Assembly: GCF_018687895.1 (NCBI RefSeq)
Contig: NZ_CP061307.1
Coordinates: 806,001 to 870,000 of the forward strand
DNA from: Polynucleobacter sp. JS-JIR-II-50
GTDB lineage: Bacteria > Pseudomonadota > Gammaproteobacteria > Burkholderiales > Burkholderiaceae
Length of the DNA stretch: 64,000 nt
Direction: 5' to 3'
In this document: piece after piece, positions 17,802-37,633 of the stretch
Numbering within the stretch: position 1 is the first letter of the stretch
Layout: each line of letters begins with the position of its first letter
Notes under the pieces: model-generated
Database searches by the model: none
The model's input: the letters and a program-made list of their open reading frames with translations, nothing else
What the model was told of the DNA's origin: nothing
Position numbers and translations under genes: made by a program

Positions 17802-18110
17802 TTACGCTTTCTTAGCGTAAGCGGAGCACCAGCCTTTACCAGAAACTTGTTTACCAGCAAACAATGAGCAACCGCCAGCAGCCGCATCAGCTTTGCCTTG
17901 GAATAATGCACAGTTGCTACATTGTTGTCCGGCAGCATACTTAGCGTATTTGGCCTTATCGACAGTTGTTGCATTCGCTTTGTAACCCAAAGCAGCAGCC
18001 TGCGGATCAGTTTCTGCAACCATTGCTTGAGCTTGAACTTTACCGTTCAATGCCAAAGTACAGGCACCAGCAGCAGACAAAATCATAAATTGGCGACGAC
18101 TATTTTTCAT
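17802..18110 (-). CDS. High-potential iron-sulfur protein (HiPIP)
   Basis: A 102-residue exported protein with a twin-arginine-type signal (NSRRQFMILSAAGA) and a 75-residue mature domain. The four cluster cysteines are Cys64, Cys67, Cys81 and Cys95, with the HiPIP spacing C-x2-C-x13-C-x13-C. HiPIPs are periplasmic one-electron carriers that feed terminal oxidases or reaction centres and can accept electrons from tetrathionate-forming thiosulfate dehydrogenases in some sulfur oxidisers. The gene is alone on the minus strand beside the FNR-like gene and near tsdBA, which suggests a role in carrying electrons from sulfur oxidation. Confidence 0.95.
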   Translation of the reverse strand: MKNSRRQFMILSAAGACTLALNGKVQAQAMVAETDPQAAALGYKANATTVDKAKYAKYAAGQQCSNCALFQGKADAAAGGCSLFAGKQVSGKGWCSAYAKKA

Positions 18111-18965: not shown

Positions 18966-19916
18966 CTATTTAACACCTTTACCTATAAGTACACCGTCAA
19001 CAACTGAGCCATACAGGTTTACGCCATCATCAGCATGGAATCTTTTGCGAGTTTTTTCAATATCCCCATCAATTATGCGTGGGTCTTGGGGGCGTTCATG
19101 CATATTTATAAAAGCAGCAACATCCCAGGACTCCACGTCGGTTAAGGTTTCGCCTCGACCTAAAGGCATATTGTGTTGTATGAATCCAGCCGCAGTATTG
19201 ATGCGATGCATGCCTGCTCCCCAGTTATAAGAATTCTTACCCCAGAGAGGAGGGAAAACATAGGTTGCTCCCACTTTTTGTCCTTCGCCGTTTGATCCGT
19301 GGCAGATTTGGCATTGCTTTTCATAAACCACTTTTCCACGAGCAATGTCATAACCACCTTTAGGGGGAGGAGGTTCATCGAAACCTCGTCCTGGGAGTGC
19401 TTTTCCAACAGGCGCACCAGTTGATAGCCAATAAGAATAAGCCGTTAGGGCTAAGATAACTTCACTATCAGCTGACGGCGGAGTTCCGTTCATACTGAAG
19501 GTAAAGCAACCTTGAAGCCTCTCGGCATAGGTATTCACTTTATTATTTTTCTTGCGGTAAGCAGGATACATAGGATACGCAGCCCACATTGGAGAAGAAT
19601 TTGCAAGACGCCCTCTATCAATATGACAATTCACGCAATTCATCTCATTGCCAACGAATTGGGGTGCCAGTGCTTTTGTATTTACAAAGATAGCCTCTCC
19701 GCGCCGAACTAATTCGCCAAAGGCATTATTTTGTAATTCGGAGTCTGATGGGGGAATGAAGTATTGTGTTTTTCCAACCTTGTGGGTATTTGAGGGAATT
19801 TGGGATTGATCCTCTAGTTTTGACTTGTCCACTGCAAACGTACCTGGTGAGCTAAGGAGCAGGCATAAGGCTACTAAACTGCCAATTGAAATTTTCATAG
19901 TTGTATTTTTATTCAT
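18966..19916 (-). CDS. tsdA: Dihaem thiosulfate dehydrogenase TsdA
   Basis: A 316-residue exported dihaem cytochrome that oxidises two thiosulfates to tetrathionate, or reverses the reaction. A signal peptide spans about 1-28. Haem motifs are CVNCH (94-98) and CQICH (202-206). Cys137 in ERLQGCFTFSMNG matches the cysteine that ligates the active-site haem in characterised TsdA, which separates TsdA from ordinary dihaem cytochromes. The start at 19916 is backed by AAGGAC upstream; an in-frame ATG six codons later is less favoured. It follows tsdB by 14 bases, the tsdBA order seen in several sulfur oxidisers. Confidence 0.9.
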   Translation of the reverse strand: MNKNTTMKISIGSLVALCLLLSSPGTFAVDKSKLEDQSQIPSNTHKVGKTQYFIPPSDSELQNNAFGELVRRGEAIFVNTKALAPQFVGNEMNCVNCHIDRGRLANSSPMWAAYPMYPAYRKKNNKVNTYAERLQGCFTFSMNGTPPSADSEVILALTAYSYWLSTGAPVGKALPGRGFDEPPPPKGGYDIARGKVVYEKQCQICHGSNGEGQKVGATYVFPPLWGKNSYNWGAGMHRINTAAGFIQHNMPLGRGETLTDVESWDVAAFINMHERPQDPRIIDGDIEKTRKRFHADDGVNLYGSVVDGVLIGKGVK

Positions 19917-19930
19917 GCGATGTCCTTAAA

Positions 19931-20665
19931 TTACCTGAGCCTGTGCTGGGATTCATCAAAAGGTTCTGTTGCATCGCCCAAATTTCCAAAGTACTCCGAA
20001 ACAGCTTTAATTTGCGCATCAGTAAGGCTGGCGGCTATATGTTGCATTAACCCATTGGGATCATTGCTTCTCGTAGGTGGTACCCCCTTTTTATTGGCAG
20101 CAGTGGGCTTTTCTGCCTTCCAGGCCTTAAGTTGATTTTCTAGGTACAACGGAGATTGACCGGCCAATGGAGGGAAAGAATCACCAACACCAACGCCGTC
20201 TGGACCATGACATAAAGTGCATTCAGGAATATTTTTACTCCATTCGCCACGCAGAGCAATCCATGCGCCAGTACCGGGAACGGGGAGTCCGGTTTGTTTA
20301 GTATTTACATTAACTTTTGGTCGCTTAGAGTAAGCATTAGCCACTGCAATAATTTCCTCGTTTGTTAGTGCTGAAGAAATGCCTTGCATCAGAGAATTTT
20401 TTCGACTGCCTGACTTAAAGTCATATAGTTGCTTTTCAATGTACGCTGCAGGTAATCCTGCAAGCCGCGGAAATCCCGCTGATGGCATGCCTTTGCCATC
20501 TGGGGCATGGCAACTAATACAGGGCATCGCAGCAGGATTTGCTCCACCATGAACCATGATCGTTTCACCGTCTAAGGCAAACGAAAGAGTTGGCATGATC
20601 ATGCATAAGTACGCGATGTACTTTGAGGTGCGTATAAATAGTGTAGATGTCATGTTCATTATCAA
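19931..20665 (-). CDS. tsdB: Dihaem cytochrome c4-like electron acceptor TsdB
   Basis: A 244-residue exported cytochrome of the c4 family with two similar halves. Haems are CISCH (49-53) and CTLCH (149-153), each followed by the Gly-rich GKG or GVG segment and a later Met (SLMQG, GLMQH) that is the likely sixth ligand. TsdB is known as the electron acceptor encoded just before tsdA in some bacteria, and this gene has exactly that position. The start is uncertain: ATG triplets occur at codons 1, 3 and 5 and no clear ribosome site precedes them. The signal peptide probably ends near residue 30. Confidence 0.85.
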   Translation of the reverse strand: MIMNMTSTLFIRTSKYIAYLCMIMPTLSFALDGETIMVHGGANPAAMPCISCHAPDGKGMPSAGFPRLAGLPAAYIEKQLYDFKSGSRKNSLMQGISSALTNEEIIAVANAYSKRPKVNVNTKQTGLPVPGTGAWIALRGEWSKNIPECTLCHGPDGVGVGDSFPPLAGQSPLYLENQLKAWKAEKPTAANKKGVPPTRSNDPNGLMQHIAASLTDAQIKAVSEYFGNLGDATEPFDESQHRLR

Positions 20666-20804: not shown

Positions 20805-20818
20805 TTGATCTATGTCAA
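20805..20818. promoter_or_regulatory. FNR-type box in the tsdBA / five-haem divergent region
   Basis: TTGAT-CTAT-GTCAA matches the FNR consensus TTGAT-N4-ATCAA at nine of ten defined bases. It lies about 80 bases before the five-haem gene and 140 bases before tsdB. The FNR-like regulator encoded at 17027 has the ETISR recognition residues needed for this sequence. Confidence 0.55.
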
Positions 20819-20832
20819 GTTGCCGATATGGG

Positions 20833-20896: not shown

Positions 20897-22918
20897 ATGA
20901 TGCGATTCTTTAAGACTATTATTTTTTGTGTTGCATTTAGCCATAGTTTTTTCTCCTTCGCAGTGGACAATTCGAGCTCAACAGAGTCTTCCATAAAGCG
21001 GGGTGAATATTTATCGCACCTTGGCGACTGTGTTGCATGTCATACCGAAAAGGGTGGCAAAGTAATGGCTGGTGGCTTGGAGCTAAAAACACCTTTCGGC
21101 GCATTGTATTCAACAAACATTACGCCTGATAAAAAGACTGGAATTGGTGGGTATAGTTTTGAACAATTCGATAAGGCTATGAGAAGGGGTGTTACCGCTG
21201 ATGGCCATAATTTATATCCCGCTATGCCGTACCCATCCTATTCAAAAATGTCTGTCGAGGATATGCAGTCACTCTATCAGCATCTAATGCATGGTGTATT
21301 GCCCGTAGAAAAAGTGAATATCCAAAGTCAGATGAAATGGCCATACAACATGCGTTGGGGCCTAAGCTTTTGGAATATTCTCTTTGGCGGCAGTAAGCCT
21401 TATCAACCAGAGGCAAGTCAAACCCAACAATGGAATCGTGGTGCATATATTGTTCAAGGCATGGGTCATTGTGGGTCGTGTCATACCCCTAGAGGTCTTT
21501 TGTTCCAAGAAAAGGCAATGAGTCAGGCCGGATCAAATGGTAAGTATTTTTTGTCTGGATCTACGGTTGATAGTTGGCATGCAGTGAATCTCCGTAATTT
21601 ATGGACGCCACCAGAAATCGTAGCGTTCCTGAAAACTGGTAGAAATCAACATGCAACCGCATATGGAACAATGACTGAAGTCATTGGTTTAAGCACACAA
21701 CATTTCACTGATGAAGATCTTACTGCAATTGCTGTGTATCTTAAATCACTGAGTCTAGACGAGAGCAATCAGGCCCAGCCAATAATAGCTTTGGAAAAAT
21801 CGCAGCTATATAAGTCTAAAAATGGTTTGGCTTATGTGCAATTTTGTTCCACCTGTCATCGAAATGACGGGAAAGGGGTTTCAAAGATATTTCCTCCTTT
21901 GGCTGGTAACAAATCAATTCTTTCTGACGACCCAACTTCAGTAATTCACGTTGTTTTGAGCGGTTGGAAATCAGCGGCAACAAAAACAAACCATCGCATC
22001 GTTGGTATGCCCGAATATGGTTCACTCGGAGATGAGGAGTTGGCGGGAATTATTACCTTCATACGTTCTTCATGGGGGAATTCTGCACCTGAGGTTTCAG
22101 TTAATCAGGTTAAGGCAGTTCGGGCACAGCTAAATTTAACTTCACAAGATAGCTCTAAATTTGTAACGCCTCGATTTTCAAATATGCTAGAAAAATCAAA
22201 CTCAGGGCAGCTGGTTTACGGTATGCGCCTAATGGCAGAGACGGGTACTTTGCTTCCTGATCACGTTGGCAACAGCCTTAACTGCAGTAGCTGCCATACC
22301 AATGCTGGAACTGTAGCGAATGCATCCCCATTTGTTGGTGTAGCGGCACAGTTTCCTGCTTATGCCCCACGCGCGGGAAAAATCATTGATCTTGAGGATC
22401 GAATTAATGGATGCTTTAAACGATCGATGAACGGTAAGGCGTTAGAAAAGGATTCGGCTGAAATGAAGGCAATGGTCGCCTACATGAAGTGGGTTAACGG
22501 GCCTTATAAAAAGGATGAGCAGATTCCAGGAAGAGGTATTGGGAAAATTGATAAAACGCTACTCCCAAATATTGAAAATGGCAGGGTGATTTACCAAGCG
22601 CAATGTGCTGTTTGCCATGGGTCTAATGGAGAAGGCGTAAAACAATCTGATGGTCGGTATGTGTTTCCAATGGTGTGGGGTGATGAGTCCTTCAATTTAG
22701 GCGCTGGAATGGCGCGCACTTTTACTGCTGCGGCATTTATCAAGCAAAACATGCCGATGGGTCACAACACCAAATTTCCTTTAGGGCAGGGAGGTAGTTT
22801 AGGTGATCAGGAAGCTCTTGATGTTGCTGAGTACTTTGCTCATATGGCTCGCCCAGACTTTATTGGTAAGGATAAGGACTGGCCTAATGGCGGCAAGCCC
22901 AAAGATGCGCGCTATTAA
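20897..22918 (+). CDS. Five-haem cytochrome c with C-terminal TsdA-like domain
   Basis: A 673-residue exported protein with five haem motifs: CVACH (45-49), CGSCH (192-196), CSTCH (317-321), CSSCH (463-467) and CAVCH (570-574). The first three, with LGDCVACHTEKGG, NITPDKKTGIGGYS and GHCGSCHTPRG, match the three-haem cytochrome subunit of membrane alcohol/gluconate dehydrogenases. The last two with Cys506 in INGCFKRSMNG match TsdA, including its haem-ligating cysteine. The frame opens at 20828, but ATG at 20897 (or 20900) starts a clean signal peptide and has AGGG upstream. It looks like a thiosulfate dehydrogenase with built-in electron acceptor. Activity is inference. Confidence 0.85.
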   Translation: MMRFFKTIIFCVAFSHSFFSFAVDNSSSTESSIKRGEYLSHLGDCVACHTEKGGKVMAGGLELKTPFGALYSTNITPDKKTGIGGYSFEQFDKAMRRGVTADGHNLYPAMPYPSYSKMSVEDMQSLYQHLMHGVLPVEKVNIQSQMKWPYNMRWGLSFWNILFGGSKPYQPEASQTQQWNRGAYIVQGMGHCGSCHTPRGLLFQEKAMSQAGSNGKYFLSGSTVDSWHAVNLRNLWTPPEIVAFLKTGRNQHATAYGTMTEVIGLSTQHFTDEDLTAIAVYLKSLSLDESNQAQPIIALEKSQLYKSKNGLAYVQFCSTCHRNDGKGVSKIFPPLAGNKSILSDDPTSVIHVVLSGWKSAATKTNHRIVGMPEYGSLGDEELAGIITFIRSSWGNSAPEVSVNQVKAVRAQLNLTSQDSSKFVTPRFSNMLEKSNSGQLVYGMRLMAETGTLLPDHVGNSLNCSSCHTNAGTVANASPFVGVAAQFPAYAPRAGKIIDLEDRINGCFKRSMNGKALEKDSAEMKAMVAYMKWVNGPYKKDEQIPGRGIGKIDKTLLPNIENGRVIYQAQCAVCHGSNGEGVKQSDGRYVFPMVWGDESFNLGAGMARTFTAAAFIKQNMPMGHNTKFPLGQGGSLGDQEALDVAEYFAHMARPDFIGKDKDWPNGGKPKDARY

Positions 22919-23005: not shown

Positions 23006-23019
23006 TTGATGTGGATCAA
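23006..23019. promoter_or_regulatory. Perfect FNR-type box before the YeeE/BigR operon
   Basis: TTGAT-GTGG-ATCAA is a full match to the FNR consensus. Its centre lies about 72 bases before the transcription start predicted from the promoter at 23050-23078, close to the -71.5 position used by class I FNR/CRP activation. The likely binder is the FNR-like protein encoded at 17027. Confidence 0.65.
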
Positions 23020-23102: not shown

Positions 23103-23121
23103 TTAAATGAGGTCTACCAAG

Positions 23122-23649
23122 ATGGTTAATAAAGTAGCATTGGCTAAACCAGCGCCATATATGAACCCGCTTTTAGCGGGAATTCTTTTGGGGATGGTTC
23201 TATTAGCGACATTTGTGGTCACTGGACATGGACTTGGAGCAACAGGCTTTACGACACGCTTAACTGCATGGGTTGGAATGTATGTCGCACCTGTTGCAAC
23301 AAATTCAAATAATTACTTGGGAGGAATGATTGAAGAAGGTAAGCCATTAAATGCATGGATTACTTGGCAAGTCATGGGCGTAGCTCTCGGAGCACTTGCA
23401 TCTGCATTTTTTGCGCACAGAATTCAATTCAAGATGGATGGCGCAAAGTTTTTAGGCGGATCTAAGCGTCCATGGACAGCTCTTTTTGGTGGCGCGCTTG
23501 CAGGCTTTGGTGCAAGGGTTGCGGCAGGATGTACTAGTGGCCTAGGCTTATCTGGTGCCGCGGTGCTAAGTTTGGCTGGATTTACATTCCTGGGAACATT
23601 CTTTGCGGTAGGTTTATTGACAAGCCTTTTCTTGAAAGAGGAGAAATGA
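23122..23649 (+). CDS. YeeE/YedE family transporter, first half (PmpA-like)
   Basis: A 175-residue inner-membrane protein with about four helices and the conserved AGCTSGLGLSG segment, whose cysteine is thought to relay thiosulfate or sulfane sulfur in TsuA-type transporters. ATG at 23122 is preferred to 23107 because GAGG lies nine bases before it and the earlier ATG directly abuts the operator. The second half is encoded two bases after its stop. The pair is the PmpAB-like split form of the YeeE/YedE (DUF395) family. The substrate is inferred. Confidence 0.85.
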   Translation: MVNKVALAKPAPYMNPLLAGILLGMVLLATFVVTGHGLGATGFTTRLTAWVGMYVAPVATNSNNYLGGMIEEGKPLNAWITWQVMGVALGALASAFFAHRIQFKMDGAKFLGGSKRPWTALFGGALAGFGARVAAGCTSGLGLSGAAVLSLAGFTFLGTFFAVGLLTSLFLKEEK

Positions 23650-23650
23650 G

Positions 23651-24217
23651 ATGAGTGAAATTCTTTCAGGGCTCCTATTAGGGGCTGGATTTGGTTTTGT
23701 ATTGGAGCGTGCCGGTTTTGGTAATCCAAATAAATTAACTGGTCAATTTCGTTTAACTGATTGGTCTGTGTTTAAGGTGATGTTCACTGCCATTGTTTTT
23801 GCGGCTGTGGGGCTATTGATTTTGGAGCGATTTGGGTTTGTTGATGCTGGCAGTTTATTCGTGCCGCCGGCATTTCTGGGGGCTGCTGCCTTGGGCGGGG
23901 CTTTGGTTGGGGCTGGTTTTGCTATTGGTGGCTATTGTCCGGGAACCTCTGTGGTGGGGTTGATGTCTGGACGCATTGATGCGGCGATATTTCTACTTGG
24001 TTTATTGCTTGGTACGGTGCTATTTGCTGGAATTTACCCAACTATCGAGTTCGTAACGACTTTAGGCGAGTATGCAAAAGCAGATGCATTGCCTGATGCT
24101 TTCAATATCTCGAGCTTATCTATTGATATTGGCATGATCGTTGCTGCAATCGTTGTATTTATCTTGGGCTCTTGGATGGAAAGGAAATCTAAAGGCCCTG
24201 TGAGTTCACAAGTTTAA
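23651..24217 (+). CDS. YeeE/YedE family transporter, second half (PmpB-like)
   Basis: A 188-residue inner-membrane protein with about five helices. GFVLERAGFGNPNKLTGQF near the N-terminus and the conserved IGGYCPGTSVVGL segment (cysteine near residue 98) mark the second half of the YeeE/YedE family. An identical arrangement of two half-size proteins is repeated at 40598-41477 in the sox cluster. Probably forms a heterodimer with the preceding gene product to pass thiosulfate or persulfide sulfur inward. Confidence 0.85.
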   Translation: MSEILSGLLLGAGFGFVLERAGFGNPNKLTGQFRLTDWSVFKVMFTAIVFAAVGLLILERFGFVDAGSLFVPPAFLGAAALGGALVGAGFAIGGYCPGTSVVGLMSGRIDAAIFLLGLLLGTVLFAGIYPTIEFVTTLGEYAKADALPDAFNISSLSIDIGMIVAAIVVFILGSWMERKSKGPVSSQV

Positions 24218-24478: not shown

Positions 24479-25105
24479 ATGCTTACCCAATCTAATCTCT
24501 GGCTAGCCGCTCAAGAGCTGGCAAATATTCAGATGCGTTATGCAGACACTGGCCGCACTCTGAATGAGGCTGCTTTAGGCGGTGCAAGAGATTTTATGGA
24601 GTGGCAGCATTACCCAAATAATGATTTGGCTGATGAGCAAAGTGGGTATGAGTTTTATTACCACGCCCATTCCGCTGATGAAATGCCTCGTGAGGAGCAT
24701 GGGCACTTTCATGTAATTAAACGAGAAAGTAATACGTTTCATCATCTTATTGCCATTGCCTTAAATCAACGAGGTTTGCCGGTGCGTCTATTTACCACCA
24801 ATCAGTGGGTAACTGGCGAGGAAATGGCTGAATCAAAGCTTGCCATTAAGTCCCTTGAAGAATTTCGGATGGTAGTTAAGGGTCGCATGGCTCCAGTTGC
24901 TAAGTGGGTGGGCGCATTGATTCAGTTATTTGCTGTCGAGATTGACGAATTGATTTTAGGGCGAGATCAAAAGATTGCGCAGCTAGCGGCTAATCGAGGA
25001 GATCGAGAGCTGGTCCTGAATTCTAGAAAGCATCACGTATTAACGGAGTGCAAGATAGATTTGATGGAGCGTCTTTCTGAGCATTTATCAGTTGTAAATT
25101 CATAG
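24479..25105 (+). CDS. Uncharacterised cytoplasmic protein (DUF6969-like)
   Basis: A 208-residue protein without signal or membrane segments. A histidine-rich stretch (EFYYHAHSADEMPREEHGHFHVI, here cited in parts: YYHAHSADE at about 59-67 and EEHGHFHV at about 72-79) followed by NTFHHLIAIA could bind a metal. Residues 100-130 (LPVRLFTTNQWVTGEEM) look like a conserved core. I associate it from memory with the uncharacterised DUF6969 family; no function is known to me. It starts nine bases after the NPCGP gene and precedes the rhodanese gene by 10 bases, so the three are expected to act together. Confidence 0.75.
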   Translation: MLTQSNLWLAAQELANIQMRYADTGRTLNEAALGGARDFMEWQHYPNNDLADEQSGYEFYYHAHSADEMPREEHGHFHVIKRESNTFHHLIAIALNQRGLPVRLFTTNQWVTGEEMAESKLAIKSLEEFRMVVKGRMAPVAKWVGALIQLFAVEIDELILGRDQKIAQLAANRGDRELVLNSRKHHVLTECKIDLMERLSEHLSVVNS

Positions 25106-28729: not shown

Positions 28730-29839
28730 TTAACGATCAATAAATCGCCTTGGGTCGTTGATGGGGCGTAATGGCATGATGTGAATCTGATTGCCATCTA
28801 ATTCAATATGTAATTTACTGCCTATTTCCATGTTGAGTCTTTTCACTTCAGAAGACGAGGCAACCCACTCAAGTTTGTGTGTACTACTCTGAATTTGTAG
28901 CTGAACTACTGCAATTTGACCTAAGCTGCTCATTGCTGCCACCGAAGCAGGAATACTTGTAGCGGTTGCTGTGCTGTGAATGCTTAATCCATCTTGCGGA
29001 ATAACCCATGCTACTTGTGCGTTTGGCGGGATCTTGCCTTTATCGGCTACGGTGAAAGTTTTTTCACAGCCCTCCCAGGAGAGGTTGCCCGCATTAAATA
29101 TTCCATGGAACATATTATTAATGCCAACCAACTCGGCTACACGTGAGTTTCTGGGTCTTTGGAACAGCACTTGAGGCGCAGCAGTTTGTAGGCTTATGCC
29201 ATTGTCAATTACAGTAATGCGATCAGCAAGTAGATCCGCCTCACGTAAATCATGGGTAACAAGCAAAATAGGAATATTTAAGTCCTTGCGTAAATCTGCA
29301 AGAGTTTTATATAGACTCTGACGGGTTGGCGCATCGACTGCTGAGAACGGTTCATCAAGCAATAAGATCTTAGGTTGTCGGGCTAATGCGCGAGCAAGTG
29401 CCACACGTTGCTGCTGCCCACCAGAGAGCTGGTTTGGAAAGCGGTGGGCTAGTTCAGCAATTCCCATGCGGCTCAGCCAATCTTGAGCAATCAATCTTCG
29501 CTCTGCGACTTTTTTTGCTGAATTCTGCAAGGGAATGAGGACATTCTCAATAGCAGAAAGATGTGGGAAGAGGGCATATTGCTGAAATAAGAATCCGCAA
29601 GATCGTTGTGCTGGCGGCAGGTTCTGTATAACGCCCGTTATTTCGTTAGCTTCAAACCAAGTTTGACCATCGCATTCAATTTTTCCGGCCTTAGATTGAC
29701 TTAGTCCAGCAATCGTTCTCAGCGTGCTAGTTTTGCCGCTACCAGATGGGCCAACCAGGGCATGTAATTGACCTGCCGCACATTCAAGTGTGATCTGAAG
29801 TGGGTTTGGAAGGGTTTGGCTGATTTTTAGCTTCAGCAT
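28730..29839 (-). CDS. modC: Molybdate-type ABC transporter ATPase (ModC-like)
   Basis: A 369-residue ABC ATPase. Walker A is [10 protein letters not shown] (about 33-42), the signature is LSGGQQQR (about 139-146), Walker B is [13 protein letters not shown] and the switch His is in [11 protein letters not shown]. The C-terminal part (about 285-360) looks like a TOBE ligand domain, as in ModC. Its start overlaps the stop of the permease gene at base 29839. No binding-protein gene accompanies it. Molybdate is favoured because the partner resembles ModB and soxCD, a molybdoenzyme, lies upstream; sulfate or thiosulfate uptake cannot be excluded. Confidence 0.82.
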
Positions 29840-30492
29840 CAGGAGTTACCTCGGCTTGAGCGGTGTAAGCCTTTACCAAAGACGCCATAGGAAAGTGCAA
29901 TCGCGATGAGGGATATTCCAAGCAGTAATGAGGCCAAAGCACCTGCGCCAGAGGTATCAAAGCTTTGAACCTTGTCATAAATTGCGATTGATACGGTTTT
30001 AGTTTCCCCTGGAATAGCCCCTCCCACCATTAGCACGACCCCAAACTCCCCGAGAGTATGGGCAAATGTTAAAACTACCGCACTGGTAATGCCGCGCCAA
30101 GCTAGAGGTAGCTCAATTAGTCGAAAGATCTGCCATTTCGAGAGTCCGCTGACCTGAGCCGCTTCTCTAATATCTGGGTTGATGGCTTCAAATGCGCGCT
30201 GAATAGGCTGAATGGCAAATGGGAGGTTCACTATGAGGGAGGCAATCAGGATTCCCGCAAAGGAAAACACCAAAGGGACTCCAAATATGCTTTTGCCGCC
30301 CAGCCCCACTAGTAGGTAGTAGCCCAGCACGGTTGGCGGTAAGACTAGGGGAAGGGCTAGTCCAGCTTCAATCCAAGGCTTGCTTCTATTAAGGCTTAGC
30401 AGGGAATATGCCACCCAGATCCCAAAAGGGATGATGATGGCTAAAGTCCACAGTGCAAGCTTTAGTGAGAGAAGTATTGCGTCCGTATCCAT
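29839..30492 (-). CDS. modB: Molybdate-type ABC transporter permease (ModB-like)
   Basis: A 217-residue inner-membrane permease with about five helices. LPLVLPPTVLGYYLL near residue 50 is the ModB-type motif, and the coupling loop EAAQVSGLSKWQIFRLIELPLAWRGI (given in parts: EAAQVSGLS at about 133-141) contacts the ATPase. GEFGVVLMVGGAIPGETKT is also typical of ModB. It is translationally coupled to the ATPase gene. The modA gene normally found upstream is missing; soxR on the other strand occupies that place. Confidence 0.85.
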   Translation of the reverse strand: MDTDAILLSLKLALWTLAIIIPFGIWVAYSLLSLNRSKPWIEAGLALPLVLPPTVLGYYLLVGLGGKSIFGVPLVFSFAGILIASLIVNLPFAIQPIQRAFEAINPDIREAAQVSGLSKWQIFRLIELPLAWRGITSAVVLTFAHTLGEFGVVLMVGGAIPGETKTVSIAIYDKVQSFDTSGAGALASLLLGISLIAIALSYGVFGKGLHRSSRGNS

Positions 30493-30936: not shown

Positions 30937-30970
30937 GTTTTTATAGATTAACTTGTTAAGCAGAGGTCAA

Positions 30971-32371
30971 ATGACTAAGAAGCAAATTGAATTGAGTGCT
31001 GAGGATATCTCCGCGGTTGAGAAGTCTGCTAATAGAGCTCGCCTTGTTAAGGCGCCAGAGCACTTTATTTCTCAGGAATTAATTGCCGACATTAATGCCA
31101 ATGGCCTGGATGAGAGTCGTCGCGGTTTTTTGCGTAAAGGCTTTTTATCAGCGGTAGGTGGTGCTGCCGCTGGCTTGGCTGCGCCGATGGCTTTTGCTGC
31201 TGGAGAAGGTGACCCAGCAATCTTAGAGAAGCAAGAGTGGCAAACCACTTTAGGTAAGAACGTTGCCACTATGCCTTATGGCGTTCCATCTATTTATGAA
31301 TCTAATCTTATTCGTCGTGAATCACCTGGCTTAACGCGCGTTTCTGCAGCATCAGTTGCATTTACTCCATTGCAGGGATTGTTTGGAACTATCACTCCAA
31401 ATGGTTTGCACTTTGAGCGTCATCATCAAGGTTGGTACAACCTCAACCCTGAAACCCATCGACTCATGGTGAATGGTTTGGTGAAGAACGCTCGCGTCTT
31501 TACGATGAATGATTTGATGAGATTACCTTCAGTTTCGCGTACGCACTTTATTGAGTGTGGCGCTAATACTGGCTTAGAGTGGGGTAACGTAGCTGTACCA
31601 ACAGTGCAGTACACCCACGGTATGCTTTCTTGCTGTGAGTTTACTGGCGTACCTCTCAAAGTATTACTTGAAGAATGCGGCGCTGATTTGAAAAAAGGTA
31701 AGTTCATGCTTGCTGAGGGCGGCGATGGTTCTGGCATGACGCGCACCATCAATCTAGAAAGCTGCTTAGAAGACACAATCGTTGCCTGGAGCATGAACGG
31801 TGAAATGTTGCGCCCGGAAAACGGCTTCCCATTGCGTCTAGTGGTTCCTGGTGTGCAGGGCGTCAGCTGGGTGAAGTGGTTGCGTCGCCTAGAGGTTGGC
31901 GATATGCCTTGGAATGCGAAAGATGAAGCTGTTCACTATATTGAGCTCATGCCAGATGGCATGCACCGTCAATACGCATCCATTCAAGAATGTAAGTCAG
32001 TCATAACCACCCCTTCTGGCGGCCAGCAATTGCTAGATAAAGGCTTCTATAACGTGAGTGGCATGGCTTGGTCTGGTCGTGGCAAGATTAAACGCGTTGA
32101 CGTTTCTTTTGATGGCGGCAATAACTGGCGAACTGCACGTTTAGAGACTCCGGTGCTTACTAAATCCATTACCCGTTTCAATATAGATTGGGTATGGGAT
32201 GGTTCGCCCGCAATCTTGCAATCGAGAGCTGTAGATGACACTGGCTATATTCAGCCTTCAATTAAGGTCTTGCGTGATGTGCGTGGTAATCGCTCGATTT
32301 ATCACAACAATGCAATTCAGTCATGGAAATTGGATTCAAACGGTGAGGTGAGTAATGTACAAGTTGGATAA
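30971..32371 (+). CDS. soxC: Sulfane dehydrogenase molybdenum subunit SoxC
   Basis: The 466-residue molybdopterin subunit of SoxCD, which oxidises the sulfane sulfur on SoxY-cysteine-S-thiosulfonate. It has an unusually long N-terminal region before the twin-arginine signal (SRRGFLRKGFLS at about 49-60). The Mo-ligating cysteine is Cys196 in HFIECGANTG. VPGVQGVSWVKWLRRLEV and the C-terminal dimerisation domain (VDVSFDGGNNWRTARLE) are typical of the sulfite-oxidase superfamily. ATG at 30971 has AGAGG upstream; the frame opens at 30953. Its end overlaps soxD by 17 bases. Confidence 0.96.
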   Translation: MTKKQIELSAEDISAVEKSANRARLVKAPEHFISQELIADINANGLDESRRGFLRKGFLSAVGGAAAGLAAPMAFAAGEGDPAILEKQEWQTTLGKNVATMPYGVPSIYESNLIRRESPGLTRVSAASVAFTPLQGLFGTITPNGLHFERHHQGWYNLNPETHRLMVNGLVKNARVFTMNDLMRLPSVSRTHFIECGANTGLEWGNVAVPTVQYTHGMLSCCEFTGVPLKVLLEECGADLKKGKFMLAEGGDGSGMTRTINLESCLEDTIVAWSMNGEMLRPENGFPLRLVVPGVQGVSWVKWLRRLEVGDMPWNAKDEAVHYIELMPDGMHRQYASIQECKSVITTPSGGQQLLDKGFYNVSGMAWSGRGKIKRVDVSFDGGNNWRTARLETPVLTKSITRFNIDWVWDGSPAILQSRAVDDTGYIQPSIKVLRDVRGNRSIYHNNAIQSWKLDSNGEVSNVQVG

Positions 32372-33443
32372 ATTATTTGCTCGCGTAACTGTTGCAGCTT
32401 TAGCAGCCTTATCAATTCAATTTGCTTATGCGCAAAATACTCAGGGCTCTGCTAAGTTTCCGGGGATTGGCCGCAACGCCACTCCAGCCGAGGTTATGGC
32501 TTGGGATATCGATGTGCGCCCAGACTTTAAGGGGTTACCTAAAGGATCTGGCTCGGTAGAGCAGGGTCAAGCTATTTGGGAATCTAAATGCGCTAGCTGT
32601 CATGGTGTCTTTGGTGAGTCTAATGAAATCTTTACGCCGATTGCAGGTGGAACTACTGTTGATGATGTAAAGACGGGTAAGGTTGCCTCTTTAGCTGATC
32701 GTAAGCAACCTCAGCGTACTACCTTGATGAAGGTACCAAGCGTTTCTACTTTGTGGGACTACATCTATCGGGCTATGCCTTGGAATGCGCCGAGATCTTT
32801 AACGCCAGACGATACTTATGCTCTGGTTGCATTTATTTTGAGTTTGGGTGAAATTGTTCCAGATGATTTTGTATTGAGCAATACCAATATTGCCGACGTA
32901 CAGAAGAAGATGCCTAACCGCAATGGAATGACGCGTAACCATGGCTTCTGGAGTGTGAACGGCAAACCCGATGTCAATGGCTCATCTTGCATGAATAATT
33001 GCGTGAAGTTTGTACAAATTGGCTCTACGCTTCCAGACTTCGCTAGAAATGCTCACGGCAATATTGCAGAGCAAAATCGCCTCTATGGCCCATATCGTGG
33101 ATCAGACTCAACCAAGCCGCCGCTTGATAAACTGCCAGGCACATCAGGTGAGGGGCTCGCACATGCCTCTGATACTCATGCTGCAAGCACAAAGGGTCCT
33201 GCAGCGCTGTTTAAGAATGAAAACTGCTCGGCATGCCATGCCCCAAATGCGAAATTGGTTGGCCCATCAATTGCCGATATAGCAGCTAAATATAAGGGGC
33301 AGAGTGGGGCTCAAGAAAAGCTGATGGCTAAGGTCAAAAATGGGGGATCGGGGGTGTGGGGAGCGATCCCAATGCCGCCACAGTCCCAGTTATCCGATGA
33401 GGACAGGGCGACTCTAGTACGCTGGGTACTTACCGGACAATAG
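32355..33443 (+). CDS. soxD: Sulfane dehydrogenase dihaem subunit SoxD
   Basis: The 362-residue cytochrome partner of SoxC. Signal peptide about 1-26. Haem 1 is CASCH (79-83) in the SoxD-type N-terminal domain (FPGIGRNATPAEV, DIDVRPDFKGLP), and haem 2 is CSACH (291-295) in a small c-551-like C-terminal domain with Met ligand in IPMPPQSQLSDED. Between them lies a SoxD-specific segment with GSSCMNNC. The start overlaps soxC, indicating translational coupling. The presence of soxCD predicts complete oxidation of thiosulfate to sulfate without sulfur globules. Confidence 0.95.
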   Translation: MYKLDKLFARVTVAALAALSIQFAYAQNTQGSAKFPGIGRNATPAEVMAWDIDVRPDFKGLPKGSGSVEQGQAIWESKCASCHGVFGESNEIFTPIAGGTTVDDVKTGKVASLADRKQPQRTTLMKVPSVSTLWDYIYRAMPWNAPRSLTPDDTYALVAFILSLGEIVPDDFVLSNTNIADVQKKMPNRNGMTRNHGFWSVNGKPDVNGSSCMNNCVKFVQIGSTLPDFARNAHGNIAEQNRLYGPYRGSDSTKPPLDKLPGTSGEGLAHASDTHAASTKGPAALFKNENCSACHAPNAKLVGPSIADIAAKYKGQSGAQEKLMAKVKNGGSGVWGAIPMPPQSQLSDEDRATLVRWVLTGQ

Positions 33444-33510
33444 TTTTACAGAGGGTTTTTTGAAATACCGCTATATTTGAGACTAAGAGTGGATTATTAA
33501 AGGAGTTTTT

Positions 33511-33963
33511 ATGAATCAGCAGCGACGCAGTTTATTGAAATACTCAGCCGTTTTCGGCTTAATGGCTTCTGCGGGTCTTATCAGCGTAGCCCAAGCTCAA
33601 GAGTGGAATAAAGCCGCTTTTGAAGGTAAGAGCCTAGATGATGTGTTCAAGATCTTGGGTGCGGGTAGCCCAGACAAATCTAGTGCAGTTACCTTGAATG
33701 CTCCGGATATCGCAGAAAATGGTGCGGTCGTTCCAGTTGGAATTGTCACAACCCTTAAAGCAGAGCAAATGGCAATTTTGGTTGAGAAAAACCCAAGCGC
33801 CTTAGCTGCGCAATTCTATATTCCAGCTGGTACTGAGCCTTTTGTTACTACTCGTATCAAGATGGGTCAAACCTCTAATGTGTATGCCTTGGTAAAAGCC
33901 GATGGCAAATGGAGTATGGCTGTTAAGGAAGTAAAAGTAACTTTGGGTGGTTGTGGCGGTTAA
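33511..33963 (+). CDS. soxY: Sulfur carrier protein SoxY
   Basis: The 150-residue periplasmic carrier to which intermediates are bound during thiosulfate oxidation. A twin-arginine-like signal (QQRRSLLKYSAVFG) is followed by the SoxY fold and the mobile C-terminal arm ending LGGCGG, with carrier cysteine Cys148. An AAGGAG ribosome site precedes ATG. soxZ follows 55 bases later; the two proteins form the SoxYZ heterodimer. Confidence 0.97.
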   Translation: MNQQRRSLLKYSAVFGLMASAGLISVAQAQEWNKAAFEGKSLDDVFKILGAGSPDKSSAVTLNAPDIAENGAVVPVGIVTTLKAEQMAILVEKNPSALAAQFYIPAGTEPFVTTRIKMGQTSNVYALVKADGKWSMAVKEVKVTLGGCGG

Positions 33964-34018
33964 TTAACCCCAGCCCAAATAAAACCATTAATTAATTACT
34001 AGATTACAAGAGGAAGAT

Positions 34019-34327
34019 ATGTCTGATCCAATGCGCGTAAGAGCGGCCGAAAACGGCGGAATTGTGGATGTAAAAATTTTGATGAAGCACGATATGGAAT
34101 CTGGTCAGCGTAAAGATGCTGCTGGTAAAACGATTCCTGCGTGGCACATTACTACTATCAATGTCAAAGCTAACGGTAAAGATGTATTGAATGGTCAGTT
34201 TGGCCCTGCGGTTTCTAAGGATCCATTCTTGAACTTCAAATACAAGGGCGCCAAAGGTGACAAGATTGTGGTGAGTTGGGTTGATAGCAAAGGTGACAAG
34301 CGCACCGACGAAGCAACAGCTTCTTAA
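34019..34327 (+). CDS. soxZ: Sulfur carrier subunit SoxZ
   Basis: A 102-residue protein without signal peptide, exported with SoxY by hitch-hiking in known systems. It starts MSDPMRVRA and contains VDVKILMKHDMESGQRKD and the immunoglobulin-like fold typical of SoxZ. A GAGGAAG ribosome site lies upstream. It stabilises SoxY and presents its carrier arm to SoxAX, SoxB and SoxCD. Confidence 0.97.
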   Translation: MSDPMRVRAAENGGIVDVKILMKHDMESGQRKDAAGKTIPAWHITTINVKANGKDVLNGQFGPAVSKDPFLNFKYKGAKGDKIVVSWVDSKGDKRTDEATAS

Positions 34328-34383
34328 TTTGCAGGTTGAATCAATAAATCTTTACCATCTAGTGTGTTTTGAAAGGGTTGCAA

Positions 34384-35199
34384 ATGCAGCGTAAATTTAC
34401 ATTAGGGCTAGCCTCAGGAATGGCGGCTGCTTTATTAATGGTCTCATCTTCTGTATCAGCGCAAAATAGTGCTACAGACGATATTGCAAAATATCGCGAG
34501 ATGATTGCTGATGGCAACCCTTCAGAGCTTTACGAGGCAGCTGGTGAGGAGTTGTGGAAAAAGCCTGCTGGCCCTAAGAACGCTACTTTAGAAAAGTGTG
34601 ATTTAGGTTTGGGGCCAGGTGTAGTAAAGGGTGCTGCAGCTCAGTTACCGCGTTACTTTAAAGACACCAATAAGGTTCAAGATCTCGAATCCCGTTTAAT
34701 GACTTGTATGCAGAAGCTACAGGGCCGTGATCCGCAAGAGATGATTGATGCCCCGTTTCAAAAGGGCCCTAAGAAGGATATGGAGGCCATTGTTGCTTAC
34801 GTAGTCACCTTGTCTAAAGGCGACAAAATTAAGGTGAGCACAGCGCATCCGAAAGAAAAAGAAATGTATGAGCTCGGTAAGCGTGCATTTTTCTTCCAAG
34901 GCGGCCCAATGGATTTCTCATGTGCCTCATGCCATGGTGAAGATGGTAAGCGTATCCGCTTGCAAGACTTGCCGAACATCACCACTCAAAAGGGCGCTGC
35001 CTTAGGCTGGGGTTACTGGCCCGCATATCGTGTATCGAGTGGGCAGTTCTGGACGATGCAGCAACGTTTAAATGATTGCTATCGTCAGCAACGTTTCCCG
35101 TTCCCAATTTATGCCTCTGATGTAACGATTGCTTTATCCATGTATATGGCTAAGAACGCTAATGGCGGCACAGTTGAAACCCCTGGCTTAAAGCGCTAA
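34384..35199 (+). CDS. soxA: L-cysteine S-thiosulfotransferase haem subunit SoxA
   Basis: A 271-residue exported c-type cytochrome that with SoxX attaches thiosulfate to SoxY. ATG at 34384 follows AAGGG; the frame opens at a TTG at 34369. Signal peptide about 1-26. Only one haem motif remains, CASCH (180-184). At the place of the other haem Cys72 and Cys108 stand alone without CxxCH, as in single-haem SoxA proteins where they form a disulfide. The active-site cysteine, found as persulfide in known SoxA, is Cys232 in RLNDCYRQQR. Confidence 0.95.
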   Translation: MQRKFTLGLASGMAAALLMVSSSVSAQNSATDDIAKYREMIADGNPSELYEAAGEELWKKPAGPKNATLEKCDLGLGPGVVKGAAAQLPRYFKDTNKVQDLESRLMTCMQKLQGRDPQEMIDAPFQKGPKKDMEAIVAYVVTLSKGDKIKVSTAHPKEKEMYELGKRAFFFQGGPMDFSCASCHGEDGKRIRLQDLPNITTQKGAALGWGYWPAYRVSSGQFWTMQQRLNDCYRQQRFPFPIYASDVTIALSMYMAKNANGGTVETPGLKR

Positions 35200-35218
35200 C
35201 GGATAAGAGATAGAGACT

Positions 35219-35857
35219 ATGAACATGAAGAATATAAAATCCCTCTTAGCTATTAGCTGTTTTGCTTTGGCTTCAGTAGTGATGCATGGCAATGTAATGG
35301 CGCAACAAGCCAATGATCCTAAATTCAACAAAATGATGAAGGATGGCTTTAAGGCTGATGGCATAGCTGGCCTAGACCGAATTCAGCAAGATGAAACCCA
35401 AAAGTTTTGTTCTGACCCTGTATTTGCTAATAGCAAGCAGGGTGAAAAGATGCGTGAAAAGATTCAGAAAATGAATATGGACAGCATTAAGCAGCCGTCC
35501 GATGGCAAGTACATCGGCGACTGGAAGAAGGGCGAGGCGATTGCGCAGAGCGGTCGTGGCGCTACCTGGACTGATAAAGCCGACACCGTCATAGGTGGTG
35601 GCTGCTACAACTGTCACCAAATCGATCCTAAAGAAATTTCCTATGGAAATATTGGCCCATCTTTAACGGGTTATGGAAAGATGCGCGGGTATTCCCAAGA
35701 AGTGGTGACCTATACCTGGAATCGTATTAATAATTCCAAGGCTTACAACGCATGCAGCAACATGCCGCGATTTGCGCATTTCAAGCTCTTAAATGAGCAG
35801 CAGATTCAGGATGTGATGGCATTGCTGCTTGATCCTGCCTCACCAGTCAATAAATAA
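35219..35857 (+). CDS. soxX: L-cysteine S-thiosulfotransferase subunit SoxX
   Basis: The 212-residue monohaem partner of SoxA. Signal peptide about 1-28. The haem motif is CYNCH (129-133), and the likely Met ligand is in SNMPRFAHF. The N-terminal extension (about 30-110) with FCSDPVF puts it in the larger, type II class of SoxX. It lies 19 bases after soxA. ATG at 35219 is used; ATG two codons later is equally possible. Confidence 0.95.
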   Translation: MNMKNIKSLLAISCFALASVVMHGNVMAQQANDPKFNKMMKDGFKADGIAGLDRIQQDETQKFCSDPVFANSKQGEKMREKIQKMNMDSIKQPSDGKYIGDWKKGEAIAQSGRGATWTDKADTVIGGGCYNCHQIDPKEISYGNIGPSLTGYGKMRGYSQEVVTYTWNRINNSKAYNACSNMPRFAHFKLLNEQQIQDVMALLLDPASPVNK

Positions 35858-35866
35858 GTAATAAAG

Positions 35867-35888
35867 ACAGGCCGACAGGCCTGTTTTC
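35867..35888 (+). terminator. Hairpin between soxX and soxB
   Basis: ACAGGC / GCCTGT stem with a six-base loop followed by TTTTC, nine bases after soxX. It may attenuate transcription or protect the upstream mRNA and so change the SoxAX to SoxB ratio. Confidence 0.5.
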
Positions 35889-35902
35889 ACAAAGGGAATG
35901 TT

Positions 35903-37633
35903 ATGTCTTTAAGTCGTCGCGATTTTCTACAGGCCTTAGCTATTGCATCTGCAGGCGGAATGAGCTTGCAATCAAACTTTGTTAATGCACAAAGTACTGC
36001 GCAAAAATTCTATGACTTGCCTAAATTTGGTAATGTTCACTTTTTACACTTTACAGATTGTCATGCCCAACTATTGCCAATTTATTTTCGTGAGCCCAAT
36101 GTAAACCTTGGCATCGGTGCGCAGGAAGGTAAGACCCCACACTTGGTTGGCGAATATTTCTTGAAGGCCAATGGCATTGCACCCGGTACGCGCGATGCTC
36201 ATGCCTTTACCTATTTAGACTATGTTGCTGCCGCACAAAACTACGGCAAGATGGGCGGATTTGCCCATATGGCTTCGTTGATTAAGCAAATGAAAGCAAG
36301 TCGCCCTGGCGCTTTATTGCTTGATGGTGGTGATACTTGGCAAGGCTCAGGAACGGCACTGTGGACCAATGGGCAGGACATGGTTGATGCCGCTCTTGCC
36401 CTGGGTGTTGATGTGATGACGCCCCATTGGGAAATGACTCTTGGCGAAAAGCGCGTTATGGAGATCGTCAATGGCGATTTCAAAGGCAAGGTGTCCTTTA
36501 TTGCGCAAAATATTAAGACGGCTGACTTTGGTGACATGGTCTTTAACCCATACGTCATGAAAGTTCAGAATGGCGTACAGGTAGCCATCATTGGACAAGC
36601 CTTCCCGTATACGCCGATTGCAAATCCCCGCTACTTCACTCCCGATTGGACCTTTGGTATTCAAGAAGAGAATATGCAAAAGACCATTGATGAGGTGAGG
36701 GCCAAGGGTGCAAAGGTGGTTGTGCTTCTGTCCCATAACGGCATGGATGTAGATTTGAAGATGGCCTCCCGCGTACGCGGACTGGATGCTATTTTGGGTG
36801 GACACACCCATGATGGCGTGCCTATTCCGGTGAAGGTGAAGAATGCAGGCGGTGTAACTTTGGTTACCAACGCTGGGTCTAATAGTAAGTTCTTAGGGGT
36901 GCTGGATTTTGATGTGAAGGGTGGCAAGCCAATAGATTTCCGCTACAAGCTATTCCCGATTTTCTCCAATATGATTCCAGCGGATCCAACGATGAATAAG
37001 TTAATCGCTAAAGTCAGGGCTCCGTATGAAGCCAAGCTCAATGAGAAGTTAGCAACTACAGAGGGGCTCTTGTATCGCCGTGGTAACTTTAACGGTAGCT
37101 TTGATCAACTTATCTTGGATGGATTGATGGCACAGAAGAATGCAGAGATTGCCTTCTCGCCAGGCTTCCGTTGGGGTACCAGCTTATTGCCTGGTCAACC
37201 CATTACGCGTGAAAATCTTTTAGATCAAACCGCGATTACCTACCCATACACTACCGTTACCAATATGAGCGGTGAAACAATCAAAACTATTCTTGAGGAC
37301 GTTGCTGATAACTTGTTTAATCCAGATCCGTATTACCAGCAGGGTGGTGACATGGTCCGCGTCGGTGGAATGCAATACACCATTGATCCAGCACAAACCG
37401 CTGGTAAACGTATTTCGGATATGCGCTTAAATGGTAAGGCCATTGATGCAAGCAAAACCTACAAAGTAGCTGGTTGGGCACCAGTCAGTGAAGAGGCGAA
37501 AAATGCAGGCGGCGAAGCAATTTGGGATGTCATGGAGCGCCACTTGCGCGATGTCAAGGTCGTTAAAGCGGTTAAGCTCAATGAGCCAATCATTAAAGGC
37601 GTTTCAAATAACCCTGGCATGGCTCCAATCTAA
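35903..37633 (+). CDS. soxB: SoxB, thiosulfohydrolase
   Basis: The 576-residue dimanganese hydrolase that releases sulfate from SoxY-bound intermediates. It has a twin-arginine signal (SRRDFLQALAIASAGG at about 4-19). The 5'-nucleotidase-like metallophosphatase core shows HFTDCHAQL, LLDGGDTWQGSG, LSHNGMDVD and LGGHTHDGVP, which supply the metal ligands. The C-terminal substrate domain includes GMQYTIDP. Length is normal for SoxB. A GGGAATG ribosome context precedes ATG. Confidence 0.97.
   Translation: MSLSRRDFLQALAIASAGGMSLQSNFVNAQSTAQKFYDLPKFGNVHFLHFTDCHAQLLPIYFREPNVNLGIGAQEGKTPHLVGEYFLKANGIAPGTRDAHAFTYLDYVAAAQNYGKMGGFAHMASLIKQMKASRPGALLLDGGDTWQGSGTALWTNGQDMVDAALALGVDVMTPHWEMTLGEKRVMEIVNGDFKGKVSFIAQNIKTADFGDMVFNPYVMKVQNGVQVAIIGQAFPYTPIANPRYFTPDWTFGIQEENMQKTIDEVRAKGAKVVVLLSHNGMDVDLKMASRVRGLDAILGGHTHDGVPIPVKVKNAGGVTLVTNAGSNSKFLGVLDFDVKGGKPIDFRYKLFPIFSNMIPADPTMNKLIAKVRAPYEAKLNEKLATTEGLLYRRGNFNGSFDQLILDGLMAQKNAEIAFSPGFRWGTSLLPGQPITRENLLDQTAITYPYTTVTNMSGETIKTILEDVADNLFNPDPYYQQGGDMVRVGGMQYTIDPAQTAGKRISDMRLNGKAIDASKTYKVAGWAPVSEEAKNAGGEAIWDVMERHLRDVKVVKAVKLNEPIIKGVSNNPGMAPI

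Follow-up and report, generated by a model that had tools for sequence, protein, structure and literature searches.

Fusion of a triheme AdhB-type cytochrome module to a TsdA domain in Polynucleobacter: a probable self-wired thiosulfate dehydrogenase/tetrathionate reductase

Introduction

TsdA enzymes make or use tetrathionate; to our knowledge, their connection to the respiratory chain has been worked out for only a few of them. A gene on a 64,000-nucleotide stretch of Polynucleobacter sp. JS-JIR-II-50 (contig NZ_CP061307.1, positions 806,001 to 870,000; hereafter the window) encodes, on one chain, a triheme cytochrome module of the AdhB type followed by a TsdA domain. Which reaction does such a fusion catalyze, and where do its electrons go? 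From sequence comparisons and a structure model, we propose that it is probably, though by no means certainly, a periplasmic, self-wired bifunctional thiosulfate dehydrogenase/tetrathionate reductase.

Results and Discussion

A five-haem protein composed of two modules

The preliminary description of this locus had noted five CxxCH motifs in one continuous frame. Translation of positions 20897-22918 bore this out, giving 673 amino acids with zero internal stops and CxxCH motifs at residues 45, 192, 317, 463, and 570. The one antisense frame that was read was riddled with stops, and the six-frame list held no further open reading frame of at least 90 amino acids over this interval. ATG codons occur at 20897 and 20900 and upstream at 20828, the last yielding a product of 696 amino acids; we prefer 20897 or 20900, because a signal-peptide-like stretch then comes first. 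The features of the gene are as follows.

20897..22918, + strand: five-haem AdhB-TsdA fusion gene, 673 amino acids, with an alternative upstream ATG at 20828
20897..20962, + strand: signal-peptide-like start, residues 1-22, with a putative cleavage site
20966..22135, + strand: triheme AdhB-type module, residues 24-413
21029..21043, + strand: haem 1 CxxCH, residues 45-49
21470..21484, + strand: haem 2 CxxCH, residues 192-196
21845..21859, + strand: haem 3 CxxCH, residues 317-321
22154..22864, + strand: diheme TsdA module, residues 420-656
22283..22297, + strand: haem 4 CxxCH, catalytic haem of the TsdA domain, residues 463-467
22412..22414, + strand: Cys506, counterpart of A. vinosum Cys123 and predicted axial ligand to the catalytic haem
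22604..22618, + strand: haem 5 CxxCH, electron-transfer haem of the TsdA domain, residues 570-574
22865..22915, + strand: conserved C-terminal tail KDWP..KP.DARY, residues 657-673, common to standalone relatives

In sequence searches, the first part matched AdhB-type subunits (E 3.8e-104) and the second part TsdA (E 1.9e-54). The assignment of the first three haems to a module of the AdhB/gluconate dehydrogenase type and of the last two to a TsdA-like domain, both already suggested, is upheld by these searches and by the model; the borders lie at about residues 24-413 and 420-656, not at 1-440 and 440-673 as first drawn. The structure predicted from a mixed alignment is confident (predicted local distance difference test, pLDDT, 88) and agrees with the AdhB and TsdA folds. 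It supersedes an earlier, weak model built on 87 fusions alone (pLDDT 72.1; predicted template modelling score 0.68).

The first module has three c-type domains in the AdhB order and the corresponding fold. The three-haem subunits of G. oxydans alcohol dehydrogenase (8gy2_B) and of fructose dehydrogenase (7w2j_C) match residues 24-413, and identity to the four best solved dehydrogenase subunits is 33-42%. AdhB-type triheme subunits serve a flavin or quinoprotein large subunit, whereas the partner in the fusion is TsdA in the same chain, and the AdhB parts of the fusions form a separate clade of the AdhB tree (99*). Given this resemblance, the protein could have stayed a subunit of a dehydrogenase of the alcohol or sugar type, with the TsdA part as an appendage. 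We regard this as very improbable indeed: no large subunit was found among the 19 window neighbours scanned, the TsdA active site is kept throughout, and the AdhB-TsdA link extends beyond one clade.

The second module has two c-type haem domains, the first of SoxA/TsdA type, and its profile, fold, and active-site residues support its placement in TsdA. Against the NCBIfam SoxA model TIGR04484 the fusion scores 66.4 bits, below the cut-off of 110, and the window's own SoxA scores 255.7 bits. The protein is not a TsdBA either, because its fused acceptor belongs to a different family, being an AdhB-type triheme module and not TsdB, a cytochrome c4-like diheme protein.

Loss of the AdhB membrane helix was considered as a special trait of the fusion and dropped: among 24 AdhB-only relatives whose tails were printed, 21 are also without a long tail, and the three that have one are from acetic acid bacteria.

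Active site and haem ligands

Cys506 lies in the motif INGCFKRSMNG. It aligns with Cys123 of A. vinosum TsdA and is invariant in 87 fusions, in line with the earlier view of it as the kept haem-ligating cysteine; its placement rests on an overlay of the haem-free model on TsdA and on the sequence alignment. The key residues of A. vinosum TsdA are His80, Arg109, Arg119, Cys123, Ser127, His191, Gly221, Arg224, and Met236 (PMC4423706), and their counterparts by alignment are, in that order, H467, R492, R502, C506, S510, H574, G604, R607, and M619. Eight of the nine are invariant in the 87 fusions, and R607 is found in at least 90%. The cysteine ligand of the first TsdA haem and the substrate residues Arg109, Arg119, and Ser127 are all present (C506, R492, R502, and S510), and Ser127 is described as invariant in TsdA and absent in SoxA (PMC4423706). 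Three methionines of the AdhB module (Met110, Met259, and Met371) show no variation across these 87 fusions and, by their position, are the probable sixth haem ligands.

The nearest solved relative of the C-terminal domain is A. vinosum TsdA (PDB 4v2k, 4wq7, and others), which shares its fold and catalytic residues. It differs in having no fused wire, in leaving the DARY tail of the fusion unaligned, in an 8-residue gap opposite a short insert after Met619, and in the pocket of the second TsdA haem, where a lysine precedes the methionine and the fusion has Asn618. This pocket, K616-x-N618-M619, is spaced like Lys252, Asn254, and Met255 of the C. jejuni TsdA, a tetrathionate reductase (PMC5146829), and does not have the Lys-Met pair of A. 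vinosum.

The pocket introduces a serious rival, namely that the fusion is a tetrathionate reductase in vivo, in which the AdhB module draws electrons from quinol or a cytochrome at low oxygen and passes them to haem 5 and then to haem 4. The same Asn-Met pair, however, occurs in M. purpuratum TsdBA, which is named a thiosulfate dehydrogenase. Taking this together with the gene context and regulation described below, we consider a purely reductive role unlikely, if well worth keeping in view.

Proposed mechanism

In the self-wired bifunctional enzyme that we favour, thiosulfate would bind at Arg492, Arg502, and Ser510 next to haem 4 (His467/Cys506). Cys506 would take up the thiosulfonate, forming an S-thiosulfonate intermediate as in TsdA, and a second thiosulfate would release tetrathionate. 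The two electrons would move from haem 4 to haem 5 (His574/Met619) and from there, presumably, to the three haems of the AdhB-type module. This module would stand in for TsdB and could pass the electrons to a soluble carrier, either a high-potential iron-sulfur protein (HiPIP) encoded nearby or a cytochrome, or toward the quinone/oxidase side. The domains, the catalytic residues, the recurrent AdhB-TsdA link, and the sulfur genes at some of the loci are observations; which reaction takes place, which way it runs, in what sequence the haems pass the electrons on, and what finally receives them we infer.

Distribution of the fusion

A homologue search with residues 425-673 over 5.8 billion proteins yielded 995 matches in the allowed length range, 120 of which were listed. 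Among the 120 matches listed, five CxxCH motifs are present in 111, four in 3, and three in 6; named sources include Azospira, Zoogloea, Methylobacter, Xanthobacter, Ideonella, Sulfuriferula, Fluviibacter, and Ciceribacter. Judged by sequence, the AdhB-TsdA fusion recurs in many Proteobacteria, so that the search for proteins with both domains in this order, suggested at the outset, met with a recurrent architecture. Chance clustering of CxxCH motifs and an artefact of the reading frame are both ruled out, because both halves match their families strongly and because the five motifs recur in these homologues.

Genome contigs gave at least 21 full-length fusions among the 80 loci kept. Full-length fusions were found in 22 of 399 genomes of the order sample (plus 3 partial ones), in 7 of 186 genomes of the window's genus, and, class-wide, in the window's own genome only, out of 369. 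In the phylum sample, 36 of 398 genomes had a match at E 1e-30; of the ten genes nearest to the query domain (at least 245 bits), 5 are fused, 4 adjoin an AdhB gene, and 1 stands alone on a short contig. On plasmids, 11 records match the query over 80% of its length or more; three belong to Cupriavidus metallidurans, one being pMOL30 of the laboratory strain CH34. On pMOL30 (L230:5764-8016; RMET_RS30050 is the homologue), the fusion is annotated merely as a c-type cytochrome, adjoins a recombinase, and lies about 5 kb from czcN.

Four homologues (P0165, P0191, P0156, and P0172) are shorter forms with one extra cytochrome domain ahead of TsdA. Some of them may be real three-haem variants rather than fragments, because P0165 and P0191 start with a signal-like stretch.

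Origin of the fusion

The TsdA-domain and AdhB trees are quick trees with starred support values. The TsdA-domain tree, which is unrooted and holds no SoxA row, has two main sides, each supported at 100*. One is of the TsdBA type, with the window's second TsdA and the sequences from Zoogloea, S. stutzeri, and M. purpuratum; the other contains A. vinosum TsdA (on a long branch), standalone proteins with the DARY tail, and the fusions. A single clade holds 29 of the 30 fusions, together with four one-haem forms and P0224, and the remaining fusion, L039 from a Xanthobacteraceae metagenome-assembled genome, is placed among the standalone proteins. The same 29 fusions form the AdhB clade mentioned above, with L039 again outside.

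A tree with all fusions in one clade was rejected for the TsdA domain by an approximately unbiased test (p 0.0047), a value weakened by the fact that the group of 35 rows (30 fusions, 4 one-haem forms, and P0224), tested against 29 rows, was defined after the first tree had been inspected; REF_AvTsdA, REF_MpTsdBA, and L137 were excluded as long branches. The simplest reading would be that AdhB and TsdA were joined twice. Tree counts cannot distinguish this from a single ancient fusion that was later lost in places, and if the starred branches of the AdhB tree alone are considered, just one change is required.

In five loci (L136; L138-L140, which are near copies; and L196), an AdhB-type triheme protein and a TsdA with the DARY tail are encoded by separate, adjoining genes. 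The link between AdhB and TsdA looks functional and not like an accident of one lineage, because joining is seen outside one clade, unfused neighbour pairs exist, and the nearest genes of the phylum sample are mostly fused or adjoining.

At L039 (L039:8073-13689), genes for a putative thiosulfate dehydrogenase, Tsd, and for a binding protein come before the fusion outside the main clade, and a 5'-nucleotidase gene with 25% identity to the window's SoxB comes after it.

Gene context and the haem-free Tsd

The neighbourhoods of 47 fusion loci other than the window were screened for 25 markers besides the fusion. The fusion loci counted include near copies (the window, L143, and L144), and one contig is very probably represented twice (as L041 and L188); flanks reached up to 10 kb, with some short contigs, and those of the AdhB controls were mostly 10 kb (contig set) or about 1.5 kb (order set). 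A sulfur marker (Tsd, orphan binding protein, TsdB+TsdA, YeeE, DsrE, or sox) was present in 21 of the 47. At one locus, L141, the only markers were HiPIP and regulators.

The Tsd gene of locus L023 scores 386 bits against NCBIfam NF052225, 'thiosulfate dehydrogenase' (cut-off 300). A relative of the L023 binding protein (SBP_bac_11), whose nearest solved relatives bind sulfate, occurs in 16 of the 47 fusion loci, 8 of which also carry a relative of the Tsd gene; TsdB+TsdA is found in 4 of the 47. None of the 64 AdhB controls has Tsd, an L023-type binding protein, or TsdB, and their sole TsdA match, L173, comes from G991 and is itself the unfused AdhB+TsdA pair.

In the order sample, 17 of 399 genomes exceed the Tsd cut-off. 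Their Tsd loci contain the binding protein in 15 cases, an adjoining fusion in 4 (one cut by the contig end), and TsdB+TsdA in 5. Tsd is present in 6 of the 22 genomes with a full-length fusion vs 11 of the 377 others (Fisher p 1e-4, kinship ignored). Tsd, the orphan binding protein, TsdB, and TsdA stand in one gene row at L207, L215, L216, L217, and L218, and the slot of TsdB+TsdA in those rows is taken by the fusion at L186, L187, L188, and L221 and at L023, L037, L039, and L135. The wiring role proposed for the first module is supported by this context, because unfused AdhB+TsdA neighbours exist and because either the fusion or TsdB+TsdA stands beside Tsd.

A tsd-sbp-doxDA cluster is known from A. 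ferrooxidans (PMC6335251), and NF052225 is presumably the Tsd of that paper, to judge by its name, its size, and the neighbouring sbp. In both cases tsd and sbp adjoin a thiosulfate redox module; it is DoxDA in A. ferrooxidans and the fusion or TsdB+TsdA in some of the loci studied here, and the window has neither Tsd nor the binding protein. Tentatively, and with considerable doubt, the fusion could be a plug-in of a modular periplasmic thiosulfate/tetrathionate system, in which the haem-free Tsd and an orphan binding protein of sulfate/molybdate type are constant and the redox module (AdhB-TsdA fusion, TsdB+TsdA, or DoxDA) is swapped. On this view, the fusion would supply the electron acceptor that Tsd lacks or act as its partner on the tetrathionate side, and it might reach the quinone pool through its AdhB part.

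The order Tsd, binding protein, fusion, seen in 8 of the 47 loci (one contig counted twice), also suits another explanation, in which the TsdA domain uses a different sulfane or thiosulfonate substrate or the fusion serves chiefly to accept electrons from another enzyme, for instance Tsd. The catalytic residues for thiosulfate are all kept, however, and no Tsd lies nearby in the other 39 loci or in the window, which makes this explanation distinctly improbable.

Candidate low-oxygen control

Two kinds of regulatory element bear on a reductive role. The first is an FNR-like box, which in the window occurs both ahead of the fusion and ahead of the YeeE/YedE-type genes.

20805..20818, + strand: candidate FNR-like box TTGATCTATGTCAA, 1 mismatch, between tsdB and the fusion
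23006-23019: perfect FNR-like box upstream of the YeeE/YedE-type genes

Each of the 7 genomes of the genus that carry the fusion has such a box upstream of it: the box is perfect in G026 and G1201, has 1 mismatch in the window, G019, and G035, and has 2 in G011 and G1235. Base shuffles of six of the upstream stretches produced a box with at most 1 mismatch in 7-26 of 1000 cases. Over the whole window, though, the boxes are not enriched (6 found vs 4.2 expected).

The second element comprises genes like those of the TtrS/TtrR two-component system, found near the fusion in 5 of 55 loci and scoring below the NCBIfam cut-offs.

L231:8087-10533, L232:8051-10479, L035:11940-14500, L029:7345-9746, and L178:231-2548: TtrS/TtrR-like two-component genes

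A match over the sensor part of TtrS occurred in 0 of 59 AdhB controls. The sensors fit TtrS best, yet reach 325-334 bits where the cut-off is 750, and the regulators fit FixJ better than TtrR; at L178 the pair lies some 6 kb from the fusion, and among the controls L088 matches the kinase part and the regulator. The boxes hint at low-oxygen control and fit either direction of the reaction. Further against a tetrathionate reductase, fusion loci also lie alongside Tsd, sox, and YeeE genes.

Evidence weighing against the proposed function

Several observations weigh against the fusion as a self-wired thiosulfate dehydrogenase/tetrathionate reductase. The sequence does not fix the direction of the reaction, and the literature searched yielded no experimental activity for any member of the fusion family. 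None of the 25 markers was found in 25 of the 47 fusion loci, including the six Pseudomonas loci (some contigs are short), and no sulfur gene was seen near the pMOL30 fusion. Tsd is absent from the window's own genome. We read the Tsd loci as one operon type with an exchangeable redox module, but this is not a rule: at 8 of the 17, the stretch fetched contains no fusion and no TsdB+TsdA. Finally, 6 of the 7 fusion genomes of the window's genus (186 searched) also have a TsdA match; therefore, the fusion does not replace TsdA there.

That co-occurrence rules out a general mutual exclusion of fusion and TsdA. The two are mutually exclusive in genus g491, and of the 9 genomes of f284, 6 have the fusion (5 full, 1 cut by the contig end), with no separate TsdA match at E 1e-40.

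Relation to known systems and significance

The closest parallel is TsdBA of Marichromatium purpuratum (PDB 5lo9), which likewise has c-type electron-transfer domains followed by TsdA on a single chain; its fused acceptor is the di-haem TsdB (PMC6879331), and that of the fusion is of a different family. We found no description of an AdhB-TsdA fusion in the literature searched, which took in few subscription papers and some papers in part only. We file the triheme AdhB-type acceptor fused to TsdA as an apparent new variation on TsdBA.

In several lineages, TsdA is coupled to an electron wire of a type familiar from the oxidation of sugars and alcohols; the family has members in many Proteobacteria and also on plasmids. 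Public names such as 'c-type cytochrome' and 'alcohol dehydrogenase cytochrome c subunit precursor' mask the fusion, so that thiosulfate/tetrathionate metabolism may be overlooked in genome surveys. In Sideroxydans lithotrophicus ES-1, tetrathionate is the sole product of thiosulfate, and tsdAB is neither upregulated nor highly expressed (PMC8788666). A fusion or a Tsd gene is a candidate that could account for tetrathionate formed without induced tsdAB, as in that strain.

Other genes in the window

Genes of sulfur metabolism and a possible electron carrier surround the fusion.

17802..18110, - strand: HiPIP, possible electron carrier
18966..19916, - strand: second TsdA, of the M. purpuratum TsdBA type
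19931..20665, - strand: tsdB-like diheme cytochrome, divergent from the fusion
23107..24217, + strand: two YeeE/YedE-type (Sulf_transp) genes, 23107-23649 and 23651-24217
30953..37633, + strand: sox cluster, with soxC at 30953, a cytochrome c (soxD by position) at 32355, soxY at 33511, soxA at 34369, soxX at 35219, and soxB at 35903

Genes for an ATP-binding cassette transporter ATPase and permease (28730-30492) precede soxC, with no binding protein gene among the adjoining open reading frames listed. In the near relatives L143 and L144, too, a DUF6969 gene (24479-25105 in the window) accompanies the YeeE and rhodanese genes.
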